DNA of 64,000 nucleotides from assembly GCA_949317995.1 (NCBI GenBank), contig OX439039.1, positions 18,901,282-18,965,281 of the forward strand, in the 5' to 3' direction. This document shows positions 3,436-48,445 of this stretch, piece by piece (the stretch's first letter is position 1; each line of letters begins with the position of its first letter). Source of the DNA: Acholoe squamosa (lineage: Eukaryota; Annelida; Polychaeta; Phyllodocida; Polynoidae). The notes under the pieces are model-generated. The model was given only the letters and a program-made list of their open reading frames with translations. It searched no databases and was not told the DNA's origin. Made by a program: the position numbers and the translations under genes.

Positions 3436-5058
3436 TGTACCCTATTTTCAAAAAGTCACACTCTGCTTCACCATTCAACTTGCACTCACCACATTAGTCT
3501 GAAAAGCCATCTGCCTTGTTTAAATCAGGTACCTACTCATGTCACACACTCTATAGTGTATTATACTGACTGACTTCTCCCAACTACGTAACTACTCAAA
3601 TCCCCTTTTTTAGCACCATACTTGAATGACCACTTGTGAGCAACAAAGGGGACAAGTTATAGCTACATGAAAAGGAAGGACTGGAAACGAGGGCATTTTT
3701 AGCCAACTCTTCCTTTAACTATAGAAGCAACACGCTCCTGATACAATTATAACCAATATAGGGCCACGTAGTATACCTGTGAAAGTATGGGGAAGGGGTG
3801 GTGGGTTGGAACCGTTCATGTAGGTATCAAGAGGATAGGCAGACTACAGATGTGCAGGTGTATACGTTAGGACAGGTAGGCACTGGGGTTGAGACAGAGA
3901 TGTTTGAGGAACCATGTATACCATCCATTATTAGTCAAAACCGGCATACATATAAGGATGCAGGAAAGACATGCAGATGGAAAGACGGGGAAATGATGTC
4001 TTGATGTGCAAAGTGTTTCGCACACACCGAAAACATTCAGTGAGTCTGGTTGCTGACTCCCCAACATTCATTTCATTTTACTTCTGTGATTTGTTTCCTT
4101 TTTTCCCTATTTCGTATACATGTACTGGTTTGCAGTCCAATCCATCGAAAAATGACATATGCACTAGGAGAGGTCTTATCCCCCATGCACTAAGACCCAC
4201 TTTCACAGATCGTGCCCGATTGCAAATTGCCCCGATTTGGATTTTGTATTAAATCATTATCAAGTACTAATTTGGTTGTATGATATTCGATGTAATTATT
4301 GGTTGACCTTTCATAAAAGAAGTTTAATTTGTGTTCAGTTTAGCAAAACCCTCTAATGATGTCTTAAACCGTTGTCAACAACTTTTTAAAGACTTTGAAG
4401 CCACTCTTATCTTATTGCCATTTTGTTAAATACATAAAACACATTATAAGCACGGCATATTATGGTTGAATATCATGTAGCTCAATGAAGAATATGGATT
4501 GTAATCAGCCTCAGGTGATCAGCGATTTAACACTAACTTATTGAACTGACCACAGGGCGTATATGAGTCTTAAACGGGATAAGTATACGACTCAATCCAA
4601 GAGCAAAAGAGGTGCAGACAGTGAGACAGACAGACAACTATAGGCCCCCCTATTATTCCCAATGTAGTCAAAAACTAAATAAAAGCCCCCTGCCGACACA
4701 GCCCCCTTCTCCCTTTGTGACTCCATGAATAAAACAAACGGAGCTGGCCATCTTGCCCCGGAGCTAGTCCCGGGCGATAATCAGGGTAAAAGTAACAAAG
4801 ACACACATAGCAGCGTCCGGTTACCCATAATCCCCTTTGTCTGCCACTCACAAAAACACATCCGCGCCAGATGATGAGAGGCGGACGGCAGGGGCAGGCA
4901 GTGGAACCTCACCATATGGCTGCGGCCTCATAACCATGGAAAGGTGACATAAGGGATTTAAAGTTTAAGACACAATGCCCTTTTCTCGCCATGATACACC
5001 AATGGAGCCTTGGCGAGTTACTCACCAGTGCTGCATTCAGGCATCATGCCAACCATAC
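3436..5058. other. Anonymous stretch with one CpG-rich patch
   Basis: No gene seen. Frames of 62-93 codons at 3385-4252 overlap each other on both strands and have no recognisable content. About 4735-4920 is GC- and CpG-richer than its surroundings. It contains GCCATCTTG (a YY1-like word), TAATCCCC (4830-4837, bicoid/OTX-like) and CCCTTTGTC (SOX/TCF-like), so it is a weak enhancer or promoter candidate. The last 50 bases (5007-5055) carry GCGAGTTACTCACCAGTGCT and GGCATCATGCCAACCA, part of a dispersed motif family. The big tandem array is inserted at this point. Confidence 0.6.
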
Positions 5059-5329
5059 GGTGCCACCACCCTAAATCGGACCACTTCCGGGTTTACTGGC
5101 CAAATAGTCCCTTCTGAACTTAGTTATTTTGAGGAATTTGGCCCCAAGGGAAGGGAAAGAGGGGCCAAACCCATTGTTATTTGGTATAAGAATGATGAGG
5201 AGGAGTGTTTCAATAGGCCCAGAATATTTTTTGTTCAAAACATAAATTCAGTGGAAGTTTATGGGGTGAAGGGGTCCTGATGTGTATTCATGCGCTAATC
5301 AGGCCTCACCATGCAAAAATCACTACCTG

Positions 5330-5343
5330 GTTACCATGGCAAT
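5330..5343. promoter_or_regulatory. X-box-like word in segment A, copy 1 (same at 6618-6631 and 7906-7919)
   Basis: GTTACCATGGCAAT fits the RFX X-box consensus (GTNRCC-NN-RGYAAC) at 13 of 14 positions. The same word occurs at the same place in each of the three A copies. It may be a transposase-related palindrome rather than a host site. RFX binding is inferred from the motif only. Confidence 0.4.
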
Positions 5344-5904
5344 TTGCGCAAAATCTAGCCTGACTTTGTTTATGTGGACCTATCTTATTTTTTTCTCCAT
5401 TTCATAAGCTAAAATATGGTGTAGGTTGCTAAGCACTGTGAGAATTTTAAGTATATTTAATATCAGATCAACGGTGGGAGACCTGTGATTTTTCGGATGG
5501 TCACAAGGCATTTGGGGTGGTGACACCTTAAAGGAAAAGCTGATTTTAATACATATGCCACTCAGGGGGGCATTTTTGAGGCCTTTTCACATTTTTTTTA
5601 ACAATAAGTGTTGTTTTTTTGTGCTGGACACCTCTTATATATGGGATTTGTGTCGAAAAATGATAGAATTTCAAGGAGTTTTGGCTTAAAAATGTCTAAT
5701 TTTCACAAAAATTAGACCTTGAAACTAACTCCCTTTTTTCTAGTCCTTACAGGCATTTTATAGGAAAATTTCACTTCCTAACTAAATCTGATGAAATGGG
5801 TAATTCTTTTTAACTTACCTATCATTTAAAGGAGCGAATATCATGACACTATATAATGGAACATTCCAGGGGTGAAATATCCCAGAATTCCATTGATTGT
5901 TATG

Positions 5905-5918
5905 GTTACCATGGCAAC
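5905..5918. promoter_or_regulatory. Consensus X-box in segment B, copy 1 (same at 7193-7206)
   Basis: GTTACCATGGCAAC is a full match to the palindromic RFX X-box consensus. A second full match, GTAACCATGGCAAC, lies at 6310-6323 and 7598-7611 near the end of each B copy. The whole array therefore carries seven X-box-like palindromes in about 3 kb. Confidence 0.45.
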
Positions 5919-8103
5919 ATAACAACATGTTTCCTCTCTAAGGGGCCTATTTTGGGTCAAATTTGGCTATTTTGGCCCCAAAAATGGCTGTTTTAGGGCC
6001 TTTTCACCAATTCTACTGACTTCCCTAATTCTCACAGTGCTTAGTGGCATATTACTGGAGAAAATGGATGTTCTGGGCTGTCTTCTAATGCATATTTGCC
6101 ATAACAAAGTCAGGCTAGATTTTTCTCTATGTCAGATTAAAAACTTGTAGCTAGAAAAACAATCTTTTTAGGGCAGTTTTGGTCTACGCACATCCCACCA
6201 CTGTCCCAAATGGCCCAAAATACCAATAAAATATGGTTTTTAGGTAGAATCTGGGGACAAATTATGATTGAGGGTCCTCAAAATGTTATGTTTATGAAGG
6301 AATCTTTTGGTAACCATGGCAACAACAAAACCAGCTTTTCTGTTAAGGTGTCACCACCCTAAATCGGACCACTTCCGGGTTTACTGGCCAAATAGTCCCT
6401 TCTGAACTTAGTTATTTTGAGGAATTTGGCCCCAAGGGAAGGGAAAGAGGGGCCAAACCCATTGTTATTTGGTATAAGAATGATGAGGAGGAGTGTTTCA
6501 ATAGGCCCAGAATATTTTTTGTTCAAAACATAAATTCAGTGGAAGTTTATGGGGTGAAGGGGTCCTGATGTGTATTCATGCGCTAATCAGGCCTCACCAT
6601 GCAAAAATCACTACCTGGTTACCATGGCAATTTGCGCAAAATCTAGCCTGACTTTGTTTATGTGGACCTATCTTATTTTTTTCTCCATTTCATAAGCTAA
6701 AATATGGTGTAGGTTGCTAAGCACTGTGAGAATTTTAAGTATATTTAATATCAGATCAACGGTGGGAGACCTGTGATTTTTCGGATGGTCACAAGGCATT
6801 TGGGGTGGTGACACCTTAAAGGAAAAGCTGATTTTAATACATATGCCACTCAGGGGGGCATTTTTGAGGCCTTTTCACATTTTTTTTAACAATAAGTGTT
6901 GTTTTTTTGTGCTGGACACCTCTTATATATGGGATTTGTGTCGAAAAATGATAGAATTTCAAGGAGTTTTGGCTTAAAAATATCTAATTTTCACAAAAAT
7001 TAGACCTTGAAACTAACTCCCTTTTTTCTAGTCCTTACAGGCATTTTATAGGAAAATTTCACTTCCTAACTAAATCTGATGAAATGGGTAATTCTTTTTA
7101 ACTTACCTATCATTTAAAGGAGCGAATATCATGACACTATATAATGGAACATTCCAGGGGTGAAATATCCCAGAATTCCATTGATTGTTATGGTTACCAT
7201 GGCAACATAACAACATGTTTCCTCTCTAAGGGGCCTATTTTGGGTCAAATTTGGCTATTTTGGCCCCAAAAATGGCTGTTTTAGGGCCTTTTCACCAATT
7301 CTACTGACTTCCCTAATTCTCACAGTGCTTAGTGGCATATTACTGGAGAAAATGGATGTTCTGGGCTGTCTTCTAATGCATATTTGCCATAACAAAGTCA
7401 GGCTAGATTTTTCTCTATGTCAGATTAAAAACTTGTAGCTAGAAAAACAACCTTTTTAGGGCAGTTTTGGTCTACGCACATCCCACCACTGTCCCAAATG
7501 GCCCAAAATACCAATAAAATATGGTTTTTAGGTAGAATCTGGGGACAAATTATGATTGAGGGTCCTCAAAATGTTTCGTTTATGAAGGAATCTTTTGGTA
7601 ACCATGGCAACAACAAAACCAGCTTTTCTGTTAAGGTGTCACCACCCTAAATCGGACCACTTCCGGGTTTACTGGCCAAATAGTCCCTTCTGAACTTAGT
7701 TATTTTGAGGAATTTGGCCCCAAGGGAAGGGAAAGAGGGGCCAAACCCGTTGTTATTTGGTATAAGAATGATGAGGAGGAGTGTTTCAATAGGCCCAGAA
7801 TATTTTTTGTTCAAAACATAAATTCAGTGGAAGTTTATGGGGTGAAGGGGTCCTGATGTGTATTCATGCGCTAATCAGGCCTCACCATGCAAAAATCACT
7901 ACCTGGTTACCATGGCAATTTGCGCAAAATCTAGCCTGACTTTGTTTATGTGGACCTATCTTATTTTTTTCTCCATTTCATAAGCTAAAATATGGTGTAG
8001 GTTGCTAAGCACTGTGAGAATTTTAAGTATATTTAATATCAGGTCAACGGTGGGAGACCTGTGATTTTTCGGATGGTCACAAGGCATTTGGGGTGGTGAC
8101 ACC

Positions 8104-9417
8104 ATACAGGACTGATACAGTCTGGAAGGGTTGGAATGATACACCGAAGTAGCACTGAGTTGCTATTGCTGCATCATGATGATACAAGAAGAGGGAGTCT
8201 TGATGTATCATGCAGTACTTAAAGGGTTAATGATACATGAAGAGGGAGTCTTAATGTATCATGCAGTACTTAAAGGGTTAATGAGATGACTACATGTCTT
8301 TCAGCTATAACACACAATAATACACAATAAGTGACAAAACGTAAGAGGGATTCATGTCACGGGGGTGTTTGGCAGACAGGGTAGGCCTTCCAACTTAACA
8401 TGGGACCCCATTAAGTTGAACCCCTTTTATTGAAACTCCCCAACCCCATCCCAACCCTTACAAACCCCTCCCTACCCTAACCCTCACGTACCCCTCCTAG
8501 CCTACTGCACATGGGGGTAGGGCAGCGTAAGCTGATTTCTTTTGACAGTTAGAAACCTTTGACTGGAATTTCACACAATTCTGTCACTATGAGTGTTTCC
8601 TGGTGCAGGGTGGATCATGCATTGAGTAGGGACAGGAAGAGTACCCTCACCCCTCTCCTCACACTGACTCACAAAGACAAGACTGAGTCCACCACATCGT
8701 GTCAATGGGGCCCCACTCTCGCCACCCACCCTCCCCCCATCTTACAATAATTACAGATTTGGACTTGTACAATTTGTGTTCACGACTTTTCTAGATTATA
8801 AAGGGAATGGACAATTAATATGCTTTTCAAATTCATGCAACTGTATAATTGCTTTGATTATAAGTGTATTTAGTGTAATTAAAAAGGAAAAGTCGGAATT
8901 TGACTGTTCATGAGCGTTTGAACATCTGTCTTCTTATTGTACGACCTTTCAAATTCTCATCTAGCATCATATTAACGTAATATTGACAGAATCAAACATT
9001 GCAGGGTAGTGTAATGGGTCTTTAATTGTATATGATTAGAGAACTTTTTGTTACATGCTTCAGCATCTTTACGATATCCATTAAAACTACAGTAATCTTT
9101 CATTAGTTGGTTATTCCGCCCACCTTACTTCTATATTAGGAGGTCATCCACATTAGCGATATGTGAGCAAGTTGCCAATCTGTAGTGTAATCTATTTTTT
9201 TCAGGGGTGTATGCTTATTCTGAGTAGATACCTGCGCCGGCGCCATAGCGAGCGGGCCGGATAAATTGTCAACCAACAGAATTCATAGGGAGTAAATGAC
9301 ACCTATCTGATAACTCTTATCAATGACAACTCGATGGTAACCAAATGGATGCTCCCATTGTACATCCCACACCGACGGTTGGGGATATCCCAGTGATGGC
9401 AAAGCAGCGTGAGCATT
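8104..9417. other. Anonymous stretch with a 51-bp tandem duplication
   Basis: The first part (8108-8180) continues the degenerate motif family seen left of the array (TGATACA, CACTGAGTTG, GCATCATGATGAT). At 8181-8231 and 8232-8282 a 51-bp unit is duplicated in tandem with few changes; each copy ends in TTAAAGGGTTAAT, a word typical of the CTTAACCC element family at 16706. From 8283 the DNA is anonymous. 8400-8510 is C-rich, with CCCTAACCCTC-like words that are too few and irregular to call telomeric. No gene is supported. Confidence 0.6.
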
Positions 9418-10808: not shown

Positions 10809-12615
10809 AGCTGCATGCTCCATGCAGGAGGCTGTTCCCCAGTGCTGCATCCATGCAGGAGTCAGTCCCCAAATGCAGCATCCATGCAGGAGTCAGTCTC
10901 CAAGTGCAGCATCCATGCAGGAGTCAGTCCCCAAATGCAGCATCTATGCAGGAGTCAGTCTATAAGTGCTGCATCCATGCAGGAGTCAGTCCCACATTGC
11001 AGCATCCATGCAGGAGTCAGTCCCCAAATGTAGCATCAATGCAGGAGTCAGTCCTCAAATGCGGCATCCATGCAGGAGCCAGTCCCACAGTGCTGCATCC
11101 ATGCAGGAGTCAGTCCCCTAATGCTGCACCCATGCAGGAGTCATTCCCCCAGTGCTGCATGCTCCATGCAGGAGTCAGTCCCCCAGTGCTGCATGCTCCA
11201 TGCAGGAGTCAGTCCCCCAGTGCTGCATGCTCCATGCAGGAGTCATTCCCCCAGTGCTGCATGCTCCATGCAGGAGTCAGTCCCCCAGTGCTGCATGTTC
11301 CATGCAGGAGTCAGTCCCCCCAGTGCTGAATCCATGTGGGAGTCAGTCCCTCAGTACTGCACCCATGCATGAGCCAGTTCCCAAGTGCTGCATCCATGCA
11401 GGAGTCAGTCCCTCAGTGCTGCAGCCATGCATGAGCCAGTTCCCAAGTGCTGCATCCATGCAGGAGCCAGTCCCCAAGTGCTGCATCCATGCAGGAGCCA
11501 GTCCCAAGTGCTGCATCCTTGCAGGAGCCAGTCCCCCAGTGCTGCATCCATGCAGGAGCCAGTCCCAAGTGCTGCATCCATGCAGGAGCCAGTCCCGTGT
11601 GCTGCATCCATGCAGGAGTCAGTCCCAAGTGCTGCATCCATGCAGGAGCCAGTCCCCCAGTGCTGCATGCTCCATGCAGGAGTCAGTACCCCCAGTGCTG
11701 CATCCATGCAGGAGTCAGTCCCGTGTGCTGCATCCATGCAGAAGTCAGTCCCGTGTGCTGCATCCATGCAGAAGTCAGTCCCCCAGTGCTGCATGCTCCA
11801 TGCAGGAGCCAGTCCCAAGTGCTGCATCCATGCAGGAGCCAGTCCCCCAGTGCTGCATCCATGCAGGAGCCAGTCCCAAGTGCTCCATCCATGCAGGAGC
11901 CAGTCCCGTGTGCTGCATCCATGCAGGAGTCAGTCCCATGTGCTGCATCCATGCAGGAGCCAGTCCCCCAGTGCTGCATGCTCCATGCAGGAGTCAGTAC
12001 CCCCAGTGCTGCATCCATGCAGGAGTCAGTCCCGTGTGCTGCATCCATGCAGGAGTCAGTCCCCCAGTGCTGCATGCTCCATGCAGGAGTTAGTCCCCCC
12101 AGTGCTGCATCCATGCAGGAGCCAGTCCCGTGTGCTGCATCCATGCAGGAGTCAGTCCCCCAGTGCTGCATCCATGCAGGAGTCAGTCCCCCAGTGCTGC
12201 ATGCTCCATGCAGGAGTCAGTCCCCCCAGTGCTGCATCCATGCAGGAGTCAGTCCCCCCAGTGCTGCATCCATGCAGGAGTCAGTCCCCCCAGTGCTGCA
12301 TCCATGCAGGAGCCAGTCCCGTGTGCTGCATCCATGCAGGAGTCAGTCCCCCAGTGCTGCATGCTCCATGCAGGAGTCAGCCCCCAGTGCTGCATCCATG
12401 TAGGAGTCAGTCCCCCCAGTGCTGCATCCATGCAGGAGTCAGTCCCCCCAGTGCTGCATCCATGCAGGAGCCAGTCCCGTGTGCTGCATCCATGCAGGAG
12501 CCAGTCCCCCAGTGCTGCATGCTCCATGCAGGAGCCAGTCCCCCAGTGCTGCATCCATGCAGGAGCCAGTCCCCCAGTGCTGCATCCATGCAGAAGCCAG
12601 TCCTCCAGTGCTGCA
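10809..12615. repeat. 1.8-kb minisatellite, about 28-34 bp units
   Basis: The basic unit is GTGCTGCATCCATGCAGGAG followed by TCAGTCCCCCA, with about 58 copies. Variants swap GTCAG for GCCAG, vary the C run, use CCCGTGT or CCCAAGT before the next TGCTGC, or insert GCT to give TGCATGCTCCATGCA. The GCT-insert type is homogenised at about 11150-11310. Farther right it recurs inside a higher-order repeat: the block near 11660-11770 reappears about 311 bp later near 11970-12080. Because units are near 30 bp and lack stops in most frames, frames of 100-436 codons are open on both strands. Nothing supports translation. Confidence 0.95.
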
Positions 12616-15600
12616 TCTATGCATCGAATAGACCTAAAGGGTTGGGCACTGCTGCGATACCACTGCTGCACCATTGTTTTAAACAGGAAGGTTAAGAGTC
12701 TGGACATGAAGAATAGGGCAAAGAAATTTGACCCTGCATCTTCTTTAAGTTGACATCTTCCGCCAAGCTGGGCAGCCTATATTAACACAGTGCAGGTGAA
12801 GACAGCCTGTGTGACCCCTGGATCCTGGTGAGGACCCCAGGCCCTGGGGGAGGAGGCAGTAGGATAAGGCTGGCTGATCTTAAGGACCTGATCACAGAGG
12901 GGTAAGGGTGTTAGGGGAGCATGGGGAGGGAGAGTCACAGATCAGCAGTCAGATAGACGATGTGCATGACCACCCTGCACCTTGAGCAGCTTTACAGGTC
13001 TCCACCCCCCCCCCCAACCTTCACCCAAATATATATTGGCTTATGGCGACTTCATGAAGCTGGTATGTACCCACCAAGGTAGTTTCCTAATCTTACCTAC
13101 ACCTTAACACCCAACAGATATTATCTTGAGCTGTCTTTCTACATTATGATAAATTCACATTCTTTGTGTTATCTATTTCTTCCCCACTTGTCACCTGCTA
13201 GCGGAATTCGCTACCTAAACACAGATTGGGACATAATGGTGATATTATTCATATCAACATAAATCGTTTCAATACCCATCTAGGTACCACTGGAAAAGTT
13301 TTGACAAATAAATGATAGACAATAATCATTCATCACTCGGTTGCCAAAATCCTTTGAGGAAAACACAACAATCGTTTGTAATCCTGTGTAAGGATCCAGA
13401 CAGACAAAGATACAAGGTAACATACATGGCACATAGCGTTGAGAAAAGTCCTTTATCAAAGCCTTTAGTGTCTGTGTTGAAAGGCCATTGATTTGTGAGG
13501 ACTTATCTATCGGATTGTCCTCTTATCACTCCCATGGATCCTAAACCTGAGTGTAGATAGAGGTGGTCCTGGCTGACTTAGGACAACTAGCTGACAGGTG
13601 GATAAATTACCTGAAATGGGATAGGACCCATTTAATCCTATAAGGACAGCATGTGGCTTCAATGAACTATGCCCCCATGTCATCACATTATGCATGATAC
13701 TGCTTGGACGCAGCCCTGGTGAGTTACTCGTCATGACCGTAGGCTGTAGGTATGCCTCACTCAGATCAAATGGACCTTAATCTCAAAGAGTCAGCAGAAT
13801 CTACCATAGCACACCAGTCTTTTTTGCGCATCATGACAACTAAGTGAATGCAAGGTCTTGAGGCAACAATCAATGTTGCAGGGTTAAAGTCTAGTGTTAC
13901 AGGACCTGTGTAGATTTAGCCATATCAGACTTGCACACAGTCATACTAATTGTTATGTATAGCCCCAGTCCTCTGCCCAACCAGCCTGACCCTGACCCAG
14001 GCCCCATGAATAAGGAATCTCACAGAGATAGGATGAGCAATTAGAAAAAAAGGGTTCATGAATCTGGACTTGATGCTAATGGTAGTTGTAGCCCTCTGTA
14101 AACACAATACGCGTGATTCATGCATTTATTCCACCAGGGGGCACCACCTCTATCCGTGTCTGAGTGATAGGGCGTTTCACTTTATTTAAGACAATATTTC
14201 ATTAGTGAGATCTCCCCTAACCCCTGCCCACCCAAGGGGGACGCCACGATAACCAACCATACCCACTATTATTAATTAGCCTGCAAATCCAGACAAGTTT
14301 TTCTTAATTTGTGTATTCAATTAAGCGTGATAATTATGCATATGTGTTGACTGCAGGGTCCCAGGTTGGGGATTAAGGGTCACCGCGGCACACTGGGCAG
14401 TGGGGTGAAGGATTAGGAAGCTGGGTGGACTAATTACTCTAAATCCACCCTGGGAAGGTGATAATCTAAGGGGGGTTGATGGGGAGAGGGTGATGATATT
14501 AAAGGATGATGGGGGAGGGGGTGATGAGGCATGAGCAGACACCCTGACTTGTGATCCACACTGTGCAGGGAGATAACACTTTAAAGGTGACACAGAACTT
14601 TAAAACGCTTCAGTCAGCTTCAGCTATAAGTGTGAAAATTGGTTGGTGAGTCTCATTTCCAGGGTGGCATTCTCGAATCAAACGCACCTCATAGCATTGA
14701 TACACTCCTTAAAGGGTCGGAATGATGCTTTGATGCGCTACTGGTGAGTCAACTGACCAGCACTGCGTTAGGGGCATCATGCCAACCAAGTAACATAGCC
14801 CTAAATGTATCATGCACTCCTTCAGGGTTTGCCAGGATGCAGACAGCGCCGCCTGACGACATGATAAGACATGATTTATCAATTATCACTGTGAGGTTCA
14901 TGGCTCGGGTGTGGTCAGGATGATGGCCATGGACGGATGGTTGTTAAAAGGAGGGGGGATGCAAATATGAACAATCACTCTCCATGAATCCATGGAATAA
15001 TAGCGAACTCTGACTCTGGCCTTTACCCCTTTTAATTCTTGAAAAATGCAGGATAATAATTTATTTCCCCTTCTCTTCGGACTTTCTGATGACGTCTTGG
15101 AATATGAGGGTTGTTAAAATGGCATGTATTACATGCAGATTCTTAGGGGGCAGTTTGGTAATTCTTACCTCTCAATGCCGACAACCATGAATGAGCCAGT
15201 CACTCCCTTAGCTATCTGCCTCTGACTCTCTGTCTTTCTGTGAGTCTGCCTGCCTATCTGCCTGTCTGTGGATATGTCATTATACCATCAATATGTATTT
15301 GTTTTAGAGAACATTGCATTCAAAGCAATATTCTATATATATATACATGCAGACAGACATAACTTATAGGGCCTATAATCATAAAAATCTACTTGATCGC
15401 CCTCAAATGTGATCAAGATAACCAAAGGCATGATCGTTCCAGAAATTCATTGGCCTCCATTTCCTGATCAGTATCCTGACTTCTTCCGCCCACTTTTTAC
15501 AGTTAATCTTTTGACTGTCTGAAGACACAATTGACAGAATTGAATTATCCCAGAAAAGACCCCCTGATCAAAGTGGGTTTAGCTGAGTGCATTTTTTCCT

Positions 15601-16930: not shown

Positions 16931-19900
16931 TCCGTTTTGCTTTTCCCAATATCTTTCAGCATTCCTCTCCAGCAACGTCCGATCGGTTGTCTAGAGGGCC
17001 TTGCCAAAAAAGGAAAGGTGAACCAAAACGTTTTCATATTGCTAAAAAAAGTATTCTCGTCAGATCAGGAAGGTAAAACATTATATGACATTAGGTAGAG
17101 GTGTAATTTGTCCATTCCCTATTTTCTTAATATACTTTTACTGATCAGTTCTTTGGCAATACTGTGAAAACGAGTTAGTCCTTGCACGAGTTAGTCCTTG
17201 CACGTTTCCATCAGTAATCTCTAAAAGCTTGATAGAGGTTCTTCCCCGTTTGCTTTTGCCAAGACCTTCCTGGGACAGAGAATCCTCAGATGGTGCCATA
17301 GGACATGGGCATTTCTTTAAATTGGTTGTTACCCGTCATATGAAATATAGAAAGGTTGAATACCTTAAGGCCCTTCCTTAATGCAGGAAAACAACAAAAC
17401 GATCAGGGACATATAATGATGTCCATACAAAAGGATAAGATGAAACATCCCGATGACACATCCGACTGAGCACTAAACATCCCTTCCTTTTGTCCCGCAC
17501 GCTTCACTCCATACCCATCAGCCCAAGTTAAAACATGTTTATGAGTGTTAAGCATCCCGAACCAAACCTTTCAGCATTAAACCTCATATCAAAATGATAT
17601 TAACATGTTTACACAAGGGCGCTTAGTTTCAATGTTAGTTTGTATTAGGGGTGTGTAGGATGGTAAGCCCCTATTACAATGCCTACACCAGGCTATCAAT
17701 GCATTCAGCATCCACGTGGCAGGGCTGATAGAGACTGTAAACCTGGCTGGTGTCAGGCTCAGTGTGTGTGTTTACATTATGATCCTGGCAGCATTGAACA
17801 ATCATGGCGACATTACTCTAATGTTACAGTGGCACATTACCCTCTGTGTGGACAAGGTTTTAGGGTGGGGAGATAATGTGGTGTTACCATAAAGGGGCAT
17901 GGGGAGCAGGCTTATGGGCCCCTTTAAGGTGAGTAGCGTATCTCAATAACCTGTACCCTTTTGTTGGTATGGTGCTCTAAGGGCCGATCAGGAGGTCTTG
18001 GCATGATGCACTGATGCAGGTTCAAAAAGTCAAGATGTCAGAAGATGAGGCATCCTGTTGTCCCTAAAGACTCCCAGTTATGGTGATATTTCAGTAGGCT
18101 GAATTCGGACGGTGTTACTTTTGAGTCTCCAGATCGAAAGTCCTGAATATTTTCCAAAACTGAAATGATGAGGAAAGTTAAACCCTAAAAGAGAACAGAG
18201 AATAGGACAAGAGAACCGAAAGAAATTTTAGGTCGCTCACCATGAAAAAAAGTCCATTGCATGTGCTCGTCCACATTGAATTATGCTAGATGTAAGATTG
18301 CAAAATACAAAGCTGCCCTTTTGTGGACTGCTTTATTTACAACATTTCCTGCTTCCACTCCAAGCGATTTCACACTTTGATGTTGAAAATAAACATAAGC
18401 TGAATACAACTAACATAATAATATATGTGTTTTACTAAATTCTGTTACCATATTGCCCTTATCTCATGATTGCTGTGTACAGCTACTTAACTTATATGCC
18501 TGTAGTTTCTAAGAGATTTGAAGAAAGGAATCATTTATTTCCTGACACACCACGGGCTGCCGTTTTACTGTAGTTGCCCCTAATTTGTAGGACGCGTCCT
18601 GACCTGACAATCAAATGTCAGCACTTTAATCCCTTTGACCTTTGTGACCTTCACTTTGACCTTTGTATCCTTCAGAAGAGCCTACCCCTACTACCGAGTG
18701 GGTAGTCACATAGGGGTTTGGGTTTTGGTTATTAACAATGGAAGATTATCTCTCATTCAGAACCTCTCCCCAATCTTCACCTGTACACCTGCACTCCGCG
18801 ATTTTACCATCAAAATATTCGTCCATTACTTAAAAGACCTTTAGTGTCGGAGGTGTGATTTGAGATTAAAAAATACACAAAGAGGAACTAGAATGTCCAT
18901 AAAGTAAAAACCACGAAGGATAATTTTATAGCAAGAAGCAGGTTCTGGGAAGGTAGGAATGTTGTAACCCTTTAACCTAATATAGAATGACAATTTGGCC
19001 TCATTTGTGTGACCTTTACAACTAAAAGGTTAAGCATGTCGTATTTGAATCTAATTATGCACATTACTTTACGAGGGCCAAACTGAGAGAAGACTCCTCG
19101 ACAGGCTGGGCCGCCATATGTATGATATAGATAAAGGCGAGGACACCACTGTAGGCAGACACTTCATTTCATGTCCCCCAGACAATCCCTTGGGCTGGGA
19201 CAAAGGAGTCTCTATCAGTGTACTTAGTTTCATAAAACATCCCCCTAAAACTCCTGAGGGGGATGCAGAGAGAAATCAAGAGGAAAGAAGGTGGATGCAT
19301 CGACTAAGCAGCATCACACCAAAGGGCCTCAATCTCTTAGATTAATCTAACACAGAGCCAACTCAGCATATATTACTCCGTTGATAAACAAAAACACAAC
19401 GCTGAGTCCGCAACTGTGAAAGGAATTATATGGCACTCATGACCATACGGACATTGTCCTACCACCTTTTAATCCACTGTTTTAGCCATGGTTGCAGACT
19501 TGTTGCGTCACCCTCAGTGATGCAACCCACCTAGGACCTGACCCCCTAGGTGGCCTTACAACCCCCAGAATTGAGCACTTGGGGTTTTTTTTCTAGATTA
19601 AAATTAAAATCTAATTCTCAACCACCCAAAACCTAAAACCTAATGGCCACCACCATTATGACATTAATCTGACCTATTGGACTACACAGACAGCCCAGCA
19701 TAAGAAAAAATTATTTTCAATAAATTTTCTTAAGCTCCACTAAAATTCAAGAATATTCTATAAACCTACTTTTGCTAGGTATAAAATATTCCCACATCGC
19801 GCCTGACGAGACATTTAGTTTGAAACCACACTTTCACAAAGCCACTACTGGCCTCAGTCTGTCTGTTAAAACCCCACTCACCCACTTGATCATTTATCCG

Positions 19901-48189: not shown

Positions 48190-48445
48190 CACCAATGTAG
48201 TGGTTAGCGGAAAATGTCATGGAGAAACCGGGACTCGGACCTGGGACCCTCCAACTTCAAGGCGGAAGCTCTACCTCTGAGGTACATCCCCTTGCCTGAC
48301 ATTCTCTATCTTCCAACTACTTCTGGAGCAGTATTATGGGGGGCAGTGATTACCTGGTACCAAGCTCTTTAGAGATCCCCCTCGCAAGGCGAGACCACTC
48401 GGTATTTCCACCAGGTACAGGGAATTACTGCCCCTACACTATTAT
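48190..48445 (-). mobile_element. Composite repeat with tRNA-like module, copy 1
   Basis: On the minus strand this copy shares its whole length with 53931-54195. The order is a 5' structured module (GTACCTGGTGG ... CTCGCCTTGCGAG ... GGTACCAGG), a linker ending GATAGAGAATGTCAGGC, and a 72-base tRNA-like module at 48220-48291. That module has A-box-like (TACCTCAGAGGTAGAGC) and B-box-like (GGTCCGAGTCC) words. The tRNA-like part lies internally rather than at the 5' end, unlike a simple SINE. It is a retroposed pol III-type element by inference; no target duplication is recognised. Confidence 0.6.

Follow-up and report, generated by a model that had tools for sequence, protein, structure and literature searches.

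The window that we analyzed is a stretch of 64,000 nucleotides of the Acholoe squamosa genome, and at positions 5055..8107 it contains an A-B-A-B-A array in which three A segments of 469 bp alternate with two B segments of 811 bp, with TTAA at each joint and an exact period of 1288. The array is entered through an apparent left target site duplication, ATAC (5055..5058), which is present in a single copy at paralogous empty sites, and continues, with all A and B segments on the + strand, through A1 (5059..5527; long terminal direct repeat, or LTDR, 1, 469 bp, with the ends GGTGCCACCACCC ... GGGTGGTGACACC), a TTAA joint between LTDR and internal region (5528..5531), B1 (5532..6342; internal region, or INT, 1, 811 bp, with inverted ends and no frame of at least 110 codons), a TTAA joint between INT and LTDR (6343..6346), A2 (6347..6815; the shared LTDR 2), a second LTDR-INT joint of TTAA (6816..6819), B2 (6820..7630; INT 2, 811 bp), a second INT-LTDR joint of TTAA (7631..7634) and A3 (7635..8103; LTDR 3), and it ends at the apparent right target site duplication, again ATAC (8104..8107). 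An earlier note on this DNA had described A and B segments in a 1288-bp register, inverted outer ends and a TTAA at each internal A/B junction; we confirm all of these, with three A of 469 bp, two B that measure 819 bp once both bordering TTAAs are counted, an 18-bp inverted repeat on A, and TTAA at all four joints. The number of units is as assembled, and a monomer, A-B-A including its two TTAAs, would measure 1757 bp.

Per 469 bp, A1 differs from A2 at 1 position and from A3 at 3, A2 and A3 differ at 2, and there are 4 differences per 819 bp between B1 and B2. The termini of A form the 18-bp inverted repeat (17/18 paired in A2) with terminal bases GG...CC, and B has inverted ends of its own (GAAAAGCTG[A/G]TTTT, 13/14). 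With up to 3 mismatches allowed, the 18-bp A end occurs six times in the window, all within the array, against an expectation of 0.25. The array has no frame that runs for at least 110 codons from stop to stop, and a Pfam scan of 10 window ORFs returned no match. Elsewhere in the window, Rfam scores one tRNA match, at 48220-48291, with 31.8 bits (cut-off 29); ARAGORN found no tRNA.

ATAC is found on either side of the array (5055-5058 and 8104-8107), an agreement that two random 4-mers would show with a chance of 0.005 (window composition) to 0.009 (flank composition). The left flank sits within a different dispersed repeat, and as an empty-site test we aligned five loci, out of 52 other flank-repeat matches listed, through the joined flanks. 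A single ATAC was the best fit in all five, with scores for one, two and zero copies of 70/64/64 (L096), 66/63/60 (L097), 62/56/56 (L099) and 65/59/59 (L100), and of 57/56/56 in L098, where the fit is better by one point only and is barely informative. Since these flank-repeat paralogs align best with one ATAC, the sequence comparison supports the claim of the earlier note that the identical flanks are a duplication, and ATAC looks like a genuine target site duplication.

Our search of the host genome (1.48 Gb, 63 contigs) scored candidates best-first (the best 18 of 1829, 40 of 1095 and 40 of 495), and the resulting locus counts are therefore lower bounds that are skewed to close relatives. 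The 18-bp A end has 1085 exact copies genome-wide (511 + 574; reversed control, 0), and the recurring forms are A-B-A, A-B-A-B-A, longer arrays and solo A, with A-B-A-B-A present at at least seven loci, the window included. Among the loci compared, the 4-bp flanks are equal in 7 of 7 A-B-A-B-A loci, in 18 of 20 A-B-A (the exceptions being L019 and L058), in 11 of the 16 solo-size A read (three, L041, L065 and L069, have unequal flanks, and two, L071 and L073, have diverged ends) and in the one A-B-B-A-B-B-A-B-A (1/1). Tabulated with their flanks in this way, as the earlier note had suggested, the forms show that A and B co-occur elsewhere inside matched 4-bp flanks. The duplicated targets are mostly AT-rich (ATAC, ATAA, ATAT, TCAA, TTAA, TTAT, ACAT and others), and GG...CC ends are present at all loci compared, save for a truncated left end (L058) and the right side of an A-B copy (L037). 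We also met a three-unit array (n=3) carrying a 5.1-kb insert, and a larger multimer on contig C4, where the 12 listed B copies are spaced by 1288/1289 or 815. There are 26 exact B-TTAA-B joints genome-wide, those of the C4 array among them, in which A plus one TTAA is missing precisely; in L025, two INTs are joined with one 4-bp spacer lost. At a further locus, L060, an A end belongs to an element of 3.4 kb that is flanked by TAGT and in which no frame exceeds 93 codons.

The recurrence of these forms bears on the integrity of the assembly, where the true allele could be A-B-A, with two haplotypes stitched into A-B-A-B-A. The four sites at which B1 and B2 differ, and a pattern in A2 that is compatible with a join, would fit such an artefact, but for the structure as such it is very unlikely: A-B-A-B-A is present at seven loci and longer arrays at several, and these forms are reported for KolobokP in other species as well (PMC9587614).

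KolobokP is an LTDR-INT-LTDR DNA transposon of animals recently described by Kojima & Bao in 2022 (PMC9587614), and we are highly confident that the window element is of the KolobokP type. In that description, the LTDRs are of ~450 or ~660 bp and have inverted ends of their own of up to 18 bp and of the form RR...YY; a TSD of 3-5 bp, with no strict target, surrounds monomers, solo LTDRs and multimers; (LTDR-INT)n-LTDR multimers lie within one TSD; and INT-INT joints retain one 4-bp spacer after LTDR excision, with the same tandem and multimer forms reported in other species (PMC9587614). The window family shares the LTDR-INT-LTDR order, with an LTDR of 469 bp, 18-bp inverted ends and GG...CC termini, the short TSD (on 7/7 dimers, 18/20 monomers and 11/16 solo-size A), the multimers, and the INT-INT joints with a single 4-bp spacer (26 here). 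Autonomous members encode, within INT and on opposite strands, a DDE transposase and an I-PpoI-like His-Me nuclease (PMC9587614), whereas the window array has no coding frame of at least 110 codons and falls into the non-autonomous class, where it is small, at 1757 bp against 1738-3261 bp for the non-autonomous families of Crassostrea gigas (PMC9587614). Its INT ends in TTAA, whereas that of KolobokP-1_MeMe ends in TATA (PMC9587614). The window copy is a non-autonomous dimer of KolobokP architecture, a lineage already published (PMC9587614). The proposals of the earlier note that this is a DNA transposon that duplicated 4 bp of its target, and that A is both a direct repeat and a unit bounded by inverted repeats, stand, as does its view that the architecture is unusual.

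Coding KolobokP-like copies are also present in the host genome, where an I-PpoI-like nuclease and a transposase of the Mutator/Kolobok type lie close to TTAA-GGTGCCACCACCC ends. Running hmmscan on ORFs in loci already extracted identified PF20700 in L102 (E=3.3e-17, above cut-off; a second L102 piece is below cut-off) and PF05551 in L103 (E=2.4e-13) and L094 (E=6.3e-13), both above cut-off, and in L102 below it; the I-PpoI match was obtained by phmmer (E=0.0085), and a D, D, E and CxxH signature was read by eye in L102. Transposase relatives occur in spaced ladders, three on C13 (3945 bp apart, 33% identity) and two on C1 (4599 bp apart, 23% identity). L102, L103 and L104 have TTTAA-GGTGCCACCACCCTAAAA, with one substitution in L102, downstream of the transposase; of the 18 positions of the L103/L104 end, 17 agree with the A1 end and 16 with the other A ends. 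In L094, where the LTDRs are eroded, an exact A end is accompanied by 53 bp of A at 92%. Among the coding copies read (no intact one from end to end), none has an LTDR near-identical to A, and for this reason we infer, rather than observe, that the window family is moved by the same KolobokP transposase.

TRIMs and other LTR retrotransposons have direct terminal repeats, solo repeats and tandem copies with a common repeat, together with TG...CA ends, a primer-binding site and a purine tract. If A-B-A were a miniature LTR retrotransposon of this kind, A would be its LTR and the tandems and solo A would be products of LTR recombination, which would account for the near-identical direct terminal repeats of young copies, the solo A, the tandem forms and the short duplications. 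We regard this as extremely improbable: the termini read GG...CC, not TG...CA, and form an inverted repeat of 18 bp, inspection revealed neither a primer-binding site after A (TTAAAGGAAAAGC) nor a purine tract before A (GCTTTTCTGTTAA), DNA-transposon genes lie near similar ends in partner elements, and the precise absence of A between Bs is unexplained by LTR recombination.

The inverted ends of B, with TTAA on both sides, and the presence of A alone with equal flanks at 11 of 16 places also fit a chance composite of two unrelated TTAA transposons, in which A would be a MITE that inserted to the left and to the right of B before the whole moved as bacterial composite transposons do. That is very improbable, because no solo B was met among the B copies read, 9 of 9 further B copies, picked from 45 listed, have A on both sides, the incomplete B copies read still adjoin an A (in L037 and L026) or a second B (in L025), A-B-A occurs dispersed and with homogenized As, and the KolobokP lineage retains this architecture over seven phyla (PMC9587614). 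Bacterial composite (IS-flanked) transposons share an internal region between two mobile units with inverted ends, but KolobokP is eukaryotic and has its genes between the repeats and not inside them (PMC9587614). CMITE and CMITE-IN of corals share with the window family short TTAA elements and tandem arrays, and CMITE-IN also the placement of a TTAA element between two direct repeats (PMC2872659); CMITE has piggyBac-type CCYT ends, a length of about 100 bp and 23-bp direct repeats (PMC2872659), whereas here the ends have the form GG...CC and A is mobile in its own right. We rejected piggyBac or CMITE membership, as CCYT ends are absent (GGTG in A, AGGA in B). The exact 18-bp A end also occurs in two viral contigs, L001 and L002, which we treat as chance; L001 was rejected as a relative because it resembles the array only over 18-19 bp, the B end pattern has no match in the viral contigs, and a literature search with the end sequences returned nothing related, judged by titles.

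How the dimer arose is informed by the likeness of units within and between loci. When the terminal As on the left and on the right were compared at 28 loci, 42 variant states emerged, of which 15 are carried by the two As of a locus alike (5 of these at two loci or more) and 27 are confined to one A of one locus; none of the 42 is limited to one side, left or right, in two or more of the 28 loci. Mean differences between As are 0.89 within loci and 3.05 between them (28 loci), and those between Bs are 1.18 within (17 pairs, 8 loci) and 14.4 between. LTDRs are homogenized within loci, and the absence of a left- or right-specific LTDR lineage in the 28 loci argues that the repeats become rewritten either during transposition or in the time between two transpositions; equally, their homogenization could go back to a replicative concatemer stage ahead of insertion. 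We quantify this likeness here, and a term search of the KolobokP description found no mention of homogenization (PMC9587614).

The earlier note had offered two origins, mobilization of the array as one unit or amplification of an A-B-A after insertion, and we favor the second, since the units of one locus match one another but are distinct from those of other loci; we put at roughly 80% the probability that a KolobokP-type A-B-A monomer inserted and was then amplified locally between one and the same pair of ATAC flanks. The monomer would have been inserted at an ATAC site by a KolobokP transposase that was supplied in trans and worked on the A ends, and a later unequal exchange between LTDRs, or alternatively re-integration of an A-B circle, would have added one A-B unit inside the flanks and so left A1-B1 and A2-B2 near-identical; such exchange, possibly nuclease-stimulated, would also homogenize LTDRs and produce some solo A. 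At A position 409 (column 416) A1 and A2 share a change, with A3 and 75 A copies elsewhere unchanged, so that the sign of a local A1-B1 duplication rests on one site; no private shared change of this kind is present at the six other A-B-A-B-A loci.

We consider it rather unlikely that the array itself was the transposed unit, cut at any left and right A end from a concatemer, for example one rolled off an A-B circle, such that A, A-B-A and A-B-A-B-A would each have acquired one duplication. The equal flanks in 7/7 A-B-A-B-A loci and the similarity of units within each locus are what such insertion predicts, and, among the loci compared, the nearest A-B-A relatives of L005 and L009 are as far away as 12 and 25 B differences, respectively, while the other 5 of the 7 have one within 3 B differences. 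Kojima & Bao, from LTDR excision footprints, leave a circular intermediate open (PMC9587614). Matched outer flanks do not discriminate between the two origins, because a crossover inside the array preserves them; exchange within an inserted monomer makes insertion of an array superfluous, and a private change common to A1 and A2 only is seen in the window.

Speculative, and in our view unlikely, is the idea that the KolobokP nuclease drives both tandem growth and LTDR homogenization. It would cut the INT-TTAA-LTDR joint, leaving TTAA overhangs as I-PpoI does, and repair of the break from the adjacent LTDR would rewrite both LTDRs to one sequence in each cycle. Against what we take to be the I-PpoI recognition site, the B-TTAA-A joint matches at 11/15, a weak resemblance that 3 of the 748 other TTAA sites in the window also attain, and the comparison was post hoc, with three joints tried (11, 10 and 9 of 15). 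The TATA, not TTAA, INT ends of KolobokP-1_MeMe count against this role (PMC9587614). If this held, nuclease cycling would give a DNA transposon the behavior of an LTR element.

To the known KolobokP kind, our analysis adds LTDR homogenization and the weak I-PpoI-site resemblance of the B-TTAA-A joint. It places an odd tandem repeat within a published, little-studied transposon lineage, and shows a path by which a transposon can become a satellite-like array. With 1085 exact ends and many near-identical copies, this large family is a test case for composite-like eukaryotic transposons, and serves the question of how such transposons keep two direct repeats alike.

Between the two copies of ATAC flanking the array at 5055-8107, the window reads A1-TTAA-B1-TTAA-A2-TTAA-B2-TTAA-A3, which bears out the A-B-A-B-A order, the TTAA at inner joints and the outer ATAC flanks described in the earlier note. 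The long terminal direct repeat A (469 bp) has inverted ends of 18 bp with one mismatch, while those of the internal region B (811 bp) measure 14 bp, also with one mismatch, and lie immediately inside the TTAA. Since two short perfect stretches (21 and 18 bp) occur in both A and B, in opposite orientation, the two may have common parts. Both also contain GGTWACCATGGCAA (window 5329-5342, 5904-5917 and 6309-6322, plus later units), an X-box-like motif. Elsewhere in the window, a minisatellite at 10819-12623 (31-bp unit, about 57 copies, consensus TCCATGCAGGAGTCAGTCCCCCAGTGCTGCA) has several frames open, and an open stretch at 19055-19342, by eye like a GIY-YIG/Penelope-like end, gave no Pfam match.

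The source genome (1.48 Gb, 63 contigs) contains 511 plus 574 copies of the exact 18-bp A end, with 0 for the reversed control. The loci read take the forms A, A-B, A-B-A, A-B-A-B-A, A-B-A-B-A-B-A (C12:32104336-32113765, AGAA on both sides, with about 5.1 kb and a 5-bp overlap interrupting the second B) and A-B-B-A-B-B-A-B-A (L025, TCAA flanks in element orientation); L010/L026 is an array that breaks off within the second B, and on contig C4 a longer array has its far end beyond the stretch covered. Identical 4-bp flanks were found in 7 of 7 A-B-A-B-A, 18 of 20 A-B-A, 1 of 1 long array and 11 of 16 solo-size A loci, counts that describe a sample of close relatives rather than a census, as genome matches were ranked best-first. 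This confirms that A and B occur together elsewhere with matched flanks. The one A-B copy (L037) has TTAA on each side; of the five remaining solo-size As, L041, L065 and L069 have unequal flanks, while the ends of L071 and L073 have diverged. The tabulation leaves out L065, L069, L071, L073, L064 (where an A-B begins), L010, both the C12 and the C4 array, duplicate fetches of one place, and A or B pieces far from complete, namely the older copies nested in L051 and L017. Only some 20-45 bp of flank was covered for L062-L073, and 10 of 40 A matches gave no locus, part of these falling inside loci already covered.

Other arrangements were also seen. At C11:28729000-28735500, an A-B-A lies directly in ATAA bordering an older, partial, inverted A, and is an insertion at an existing end. 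Two inverted composites (C1:97917250-97919050 and C1:93653200-93655600) hold an unrelated core between two A copies, with left A ends pointing inwards and long inverted repeats in the core, through ATAA...TTAT; three further pairs of A ends on C1 are arranged likewise among the matches listed. A 3.4-kb element with TAGT flanks (C1:52959200-52962760) bears 344 bp of A with an A-type end at one side and just the inverted end at the other, and has no reading frame above 93 codons.

The left flank of the window array is part of another dispersed repeat (53 matches listed, including the window). Host flanks joined with one ATAC fitted better than with none or two in all five paralogs fetched, which supports ATAC as a target duplication. 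The margin was 6 points in three of them (L096, L099, L100) but shrank to 3 points in L097 and a single point in L098.

Among the terminal As of 28 loci with at least two As each, we found 42 variant states, 15 of them in both As of one locus (5 of these in at least two loci) and 27 in a single A of a single locus; no side-specific state occurred in at least two loci. Mean differences were 0.89 within and 3.05 between loci for A, and 1.18 (17 pairs from 8 loci, 10 pairs being from L025) and 14.4 for B. The direct repeats are thus rewritten. The seven A-B-A-B-A loci are spread over different subgroups, and a comparison of 17 loci places an A-B-A relative at most 3 B differences away from five of them (L014 for L003; L015/L016 for L004; L017-L019 for L006 and L007; L021 for L008), while every A-B-A in that set is at least 12 B differences from L005 and at least 25 from L009. 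The earlier note left a choice between insertion of the whole array and amplification after insertion; the simplest reading is that dimers formed locally and repeatedly. In the window, a change at A position 409 is common to A1 and A2 and present in 0 of 76 other A copies, A3 among them; no such site was found in the six other A-B-A-B-A loci.

Exact B-TTAA-B joints, lacking A and one TTAA, number 26 genome-wide. Crossing-over between (A-B)n units would preserve the A-B order and make no such joints, whereas precise excision of A can, and we therefore infer that A leaves precisely. That As instead inserted independently between Bs is argued against by their uniform orientation relative to B in the arrays read. 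In 9 of 9 B copies, picked from 45 listed and read at both edges, A flanks B on both sides. Seven B-TTAA-B joints at C7:5277772-5289773, the first five spaced 2487-2495 bp apart, suggest a higher-order satellite-like array.

One locus with an exact A end (L094) carries a 196-aa open stretch that alone gave no Pfam match and has 25 genome matches, itself included. On C13, three of these are spaced as a ladder with a 3945-bp step (33% identity, E=5.4e-24), and two on C1 are spaced likewise with a step of 4599 bp (23%, E=2.0e-4), a pattern to be expected if a coding element formed multimers. The next-best matches, L102-L104, have TTTAA followed by GGTGCCACCACCCTAAAA downstream, with one substitution in L102. 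A Mutator-like transposase (PF20700) was detected in L102 (62.9 bits, cut-off 26.5), and a homing endonuclease zinc loop (PF05551), encoded on the opposite strand from the transposase, in L103 and L094 (50.9 and 49.5 bits, cut-off 27); the PF05551 piece in L102 (19.2 bits) and the remaining Pfam names, which we disregarded, fell under cut-off. The sole phmmer match among solved structures was I-PpoI, a weak one (five sequences, best E=0.0085). Against the I-PpoI site, the B-TTAA-A joint scores 11/15, the other kind of joint 10/15 and a hypothetical A-TTAA-A joint 9/15, while of 748 other TTAA sites in the window 3 score at least 11, 16 at least 10 and 73 at least 9; the likeness is no more than a lead to where the nuclease may cut.

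Architecture, sizes, ends, forms and genes equal those of KolobokP, an animal DNA transposon type, as far as the available part of its description extends (PMC9587614), the only paper naming it in the literature searched. On that description, the A/B family is therefore a non-autonomous KolobokP family, and the window copy is a dimer. For the origin of KolobokP multimers, that paper puts forward three routes, which are unequal crossover, passage through a circular intermediate, or crossover induced by the nuclease, and the window array fits these.
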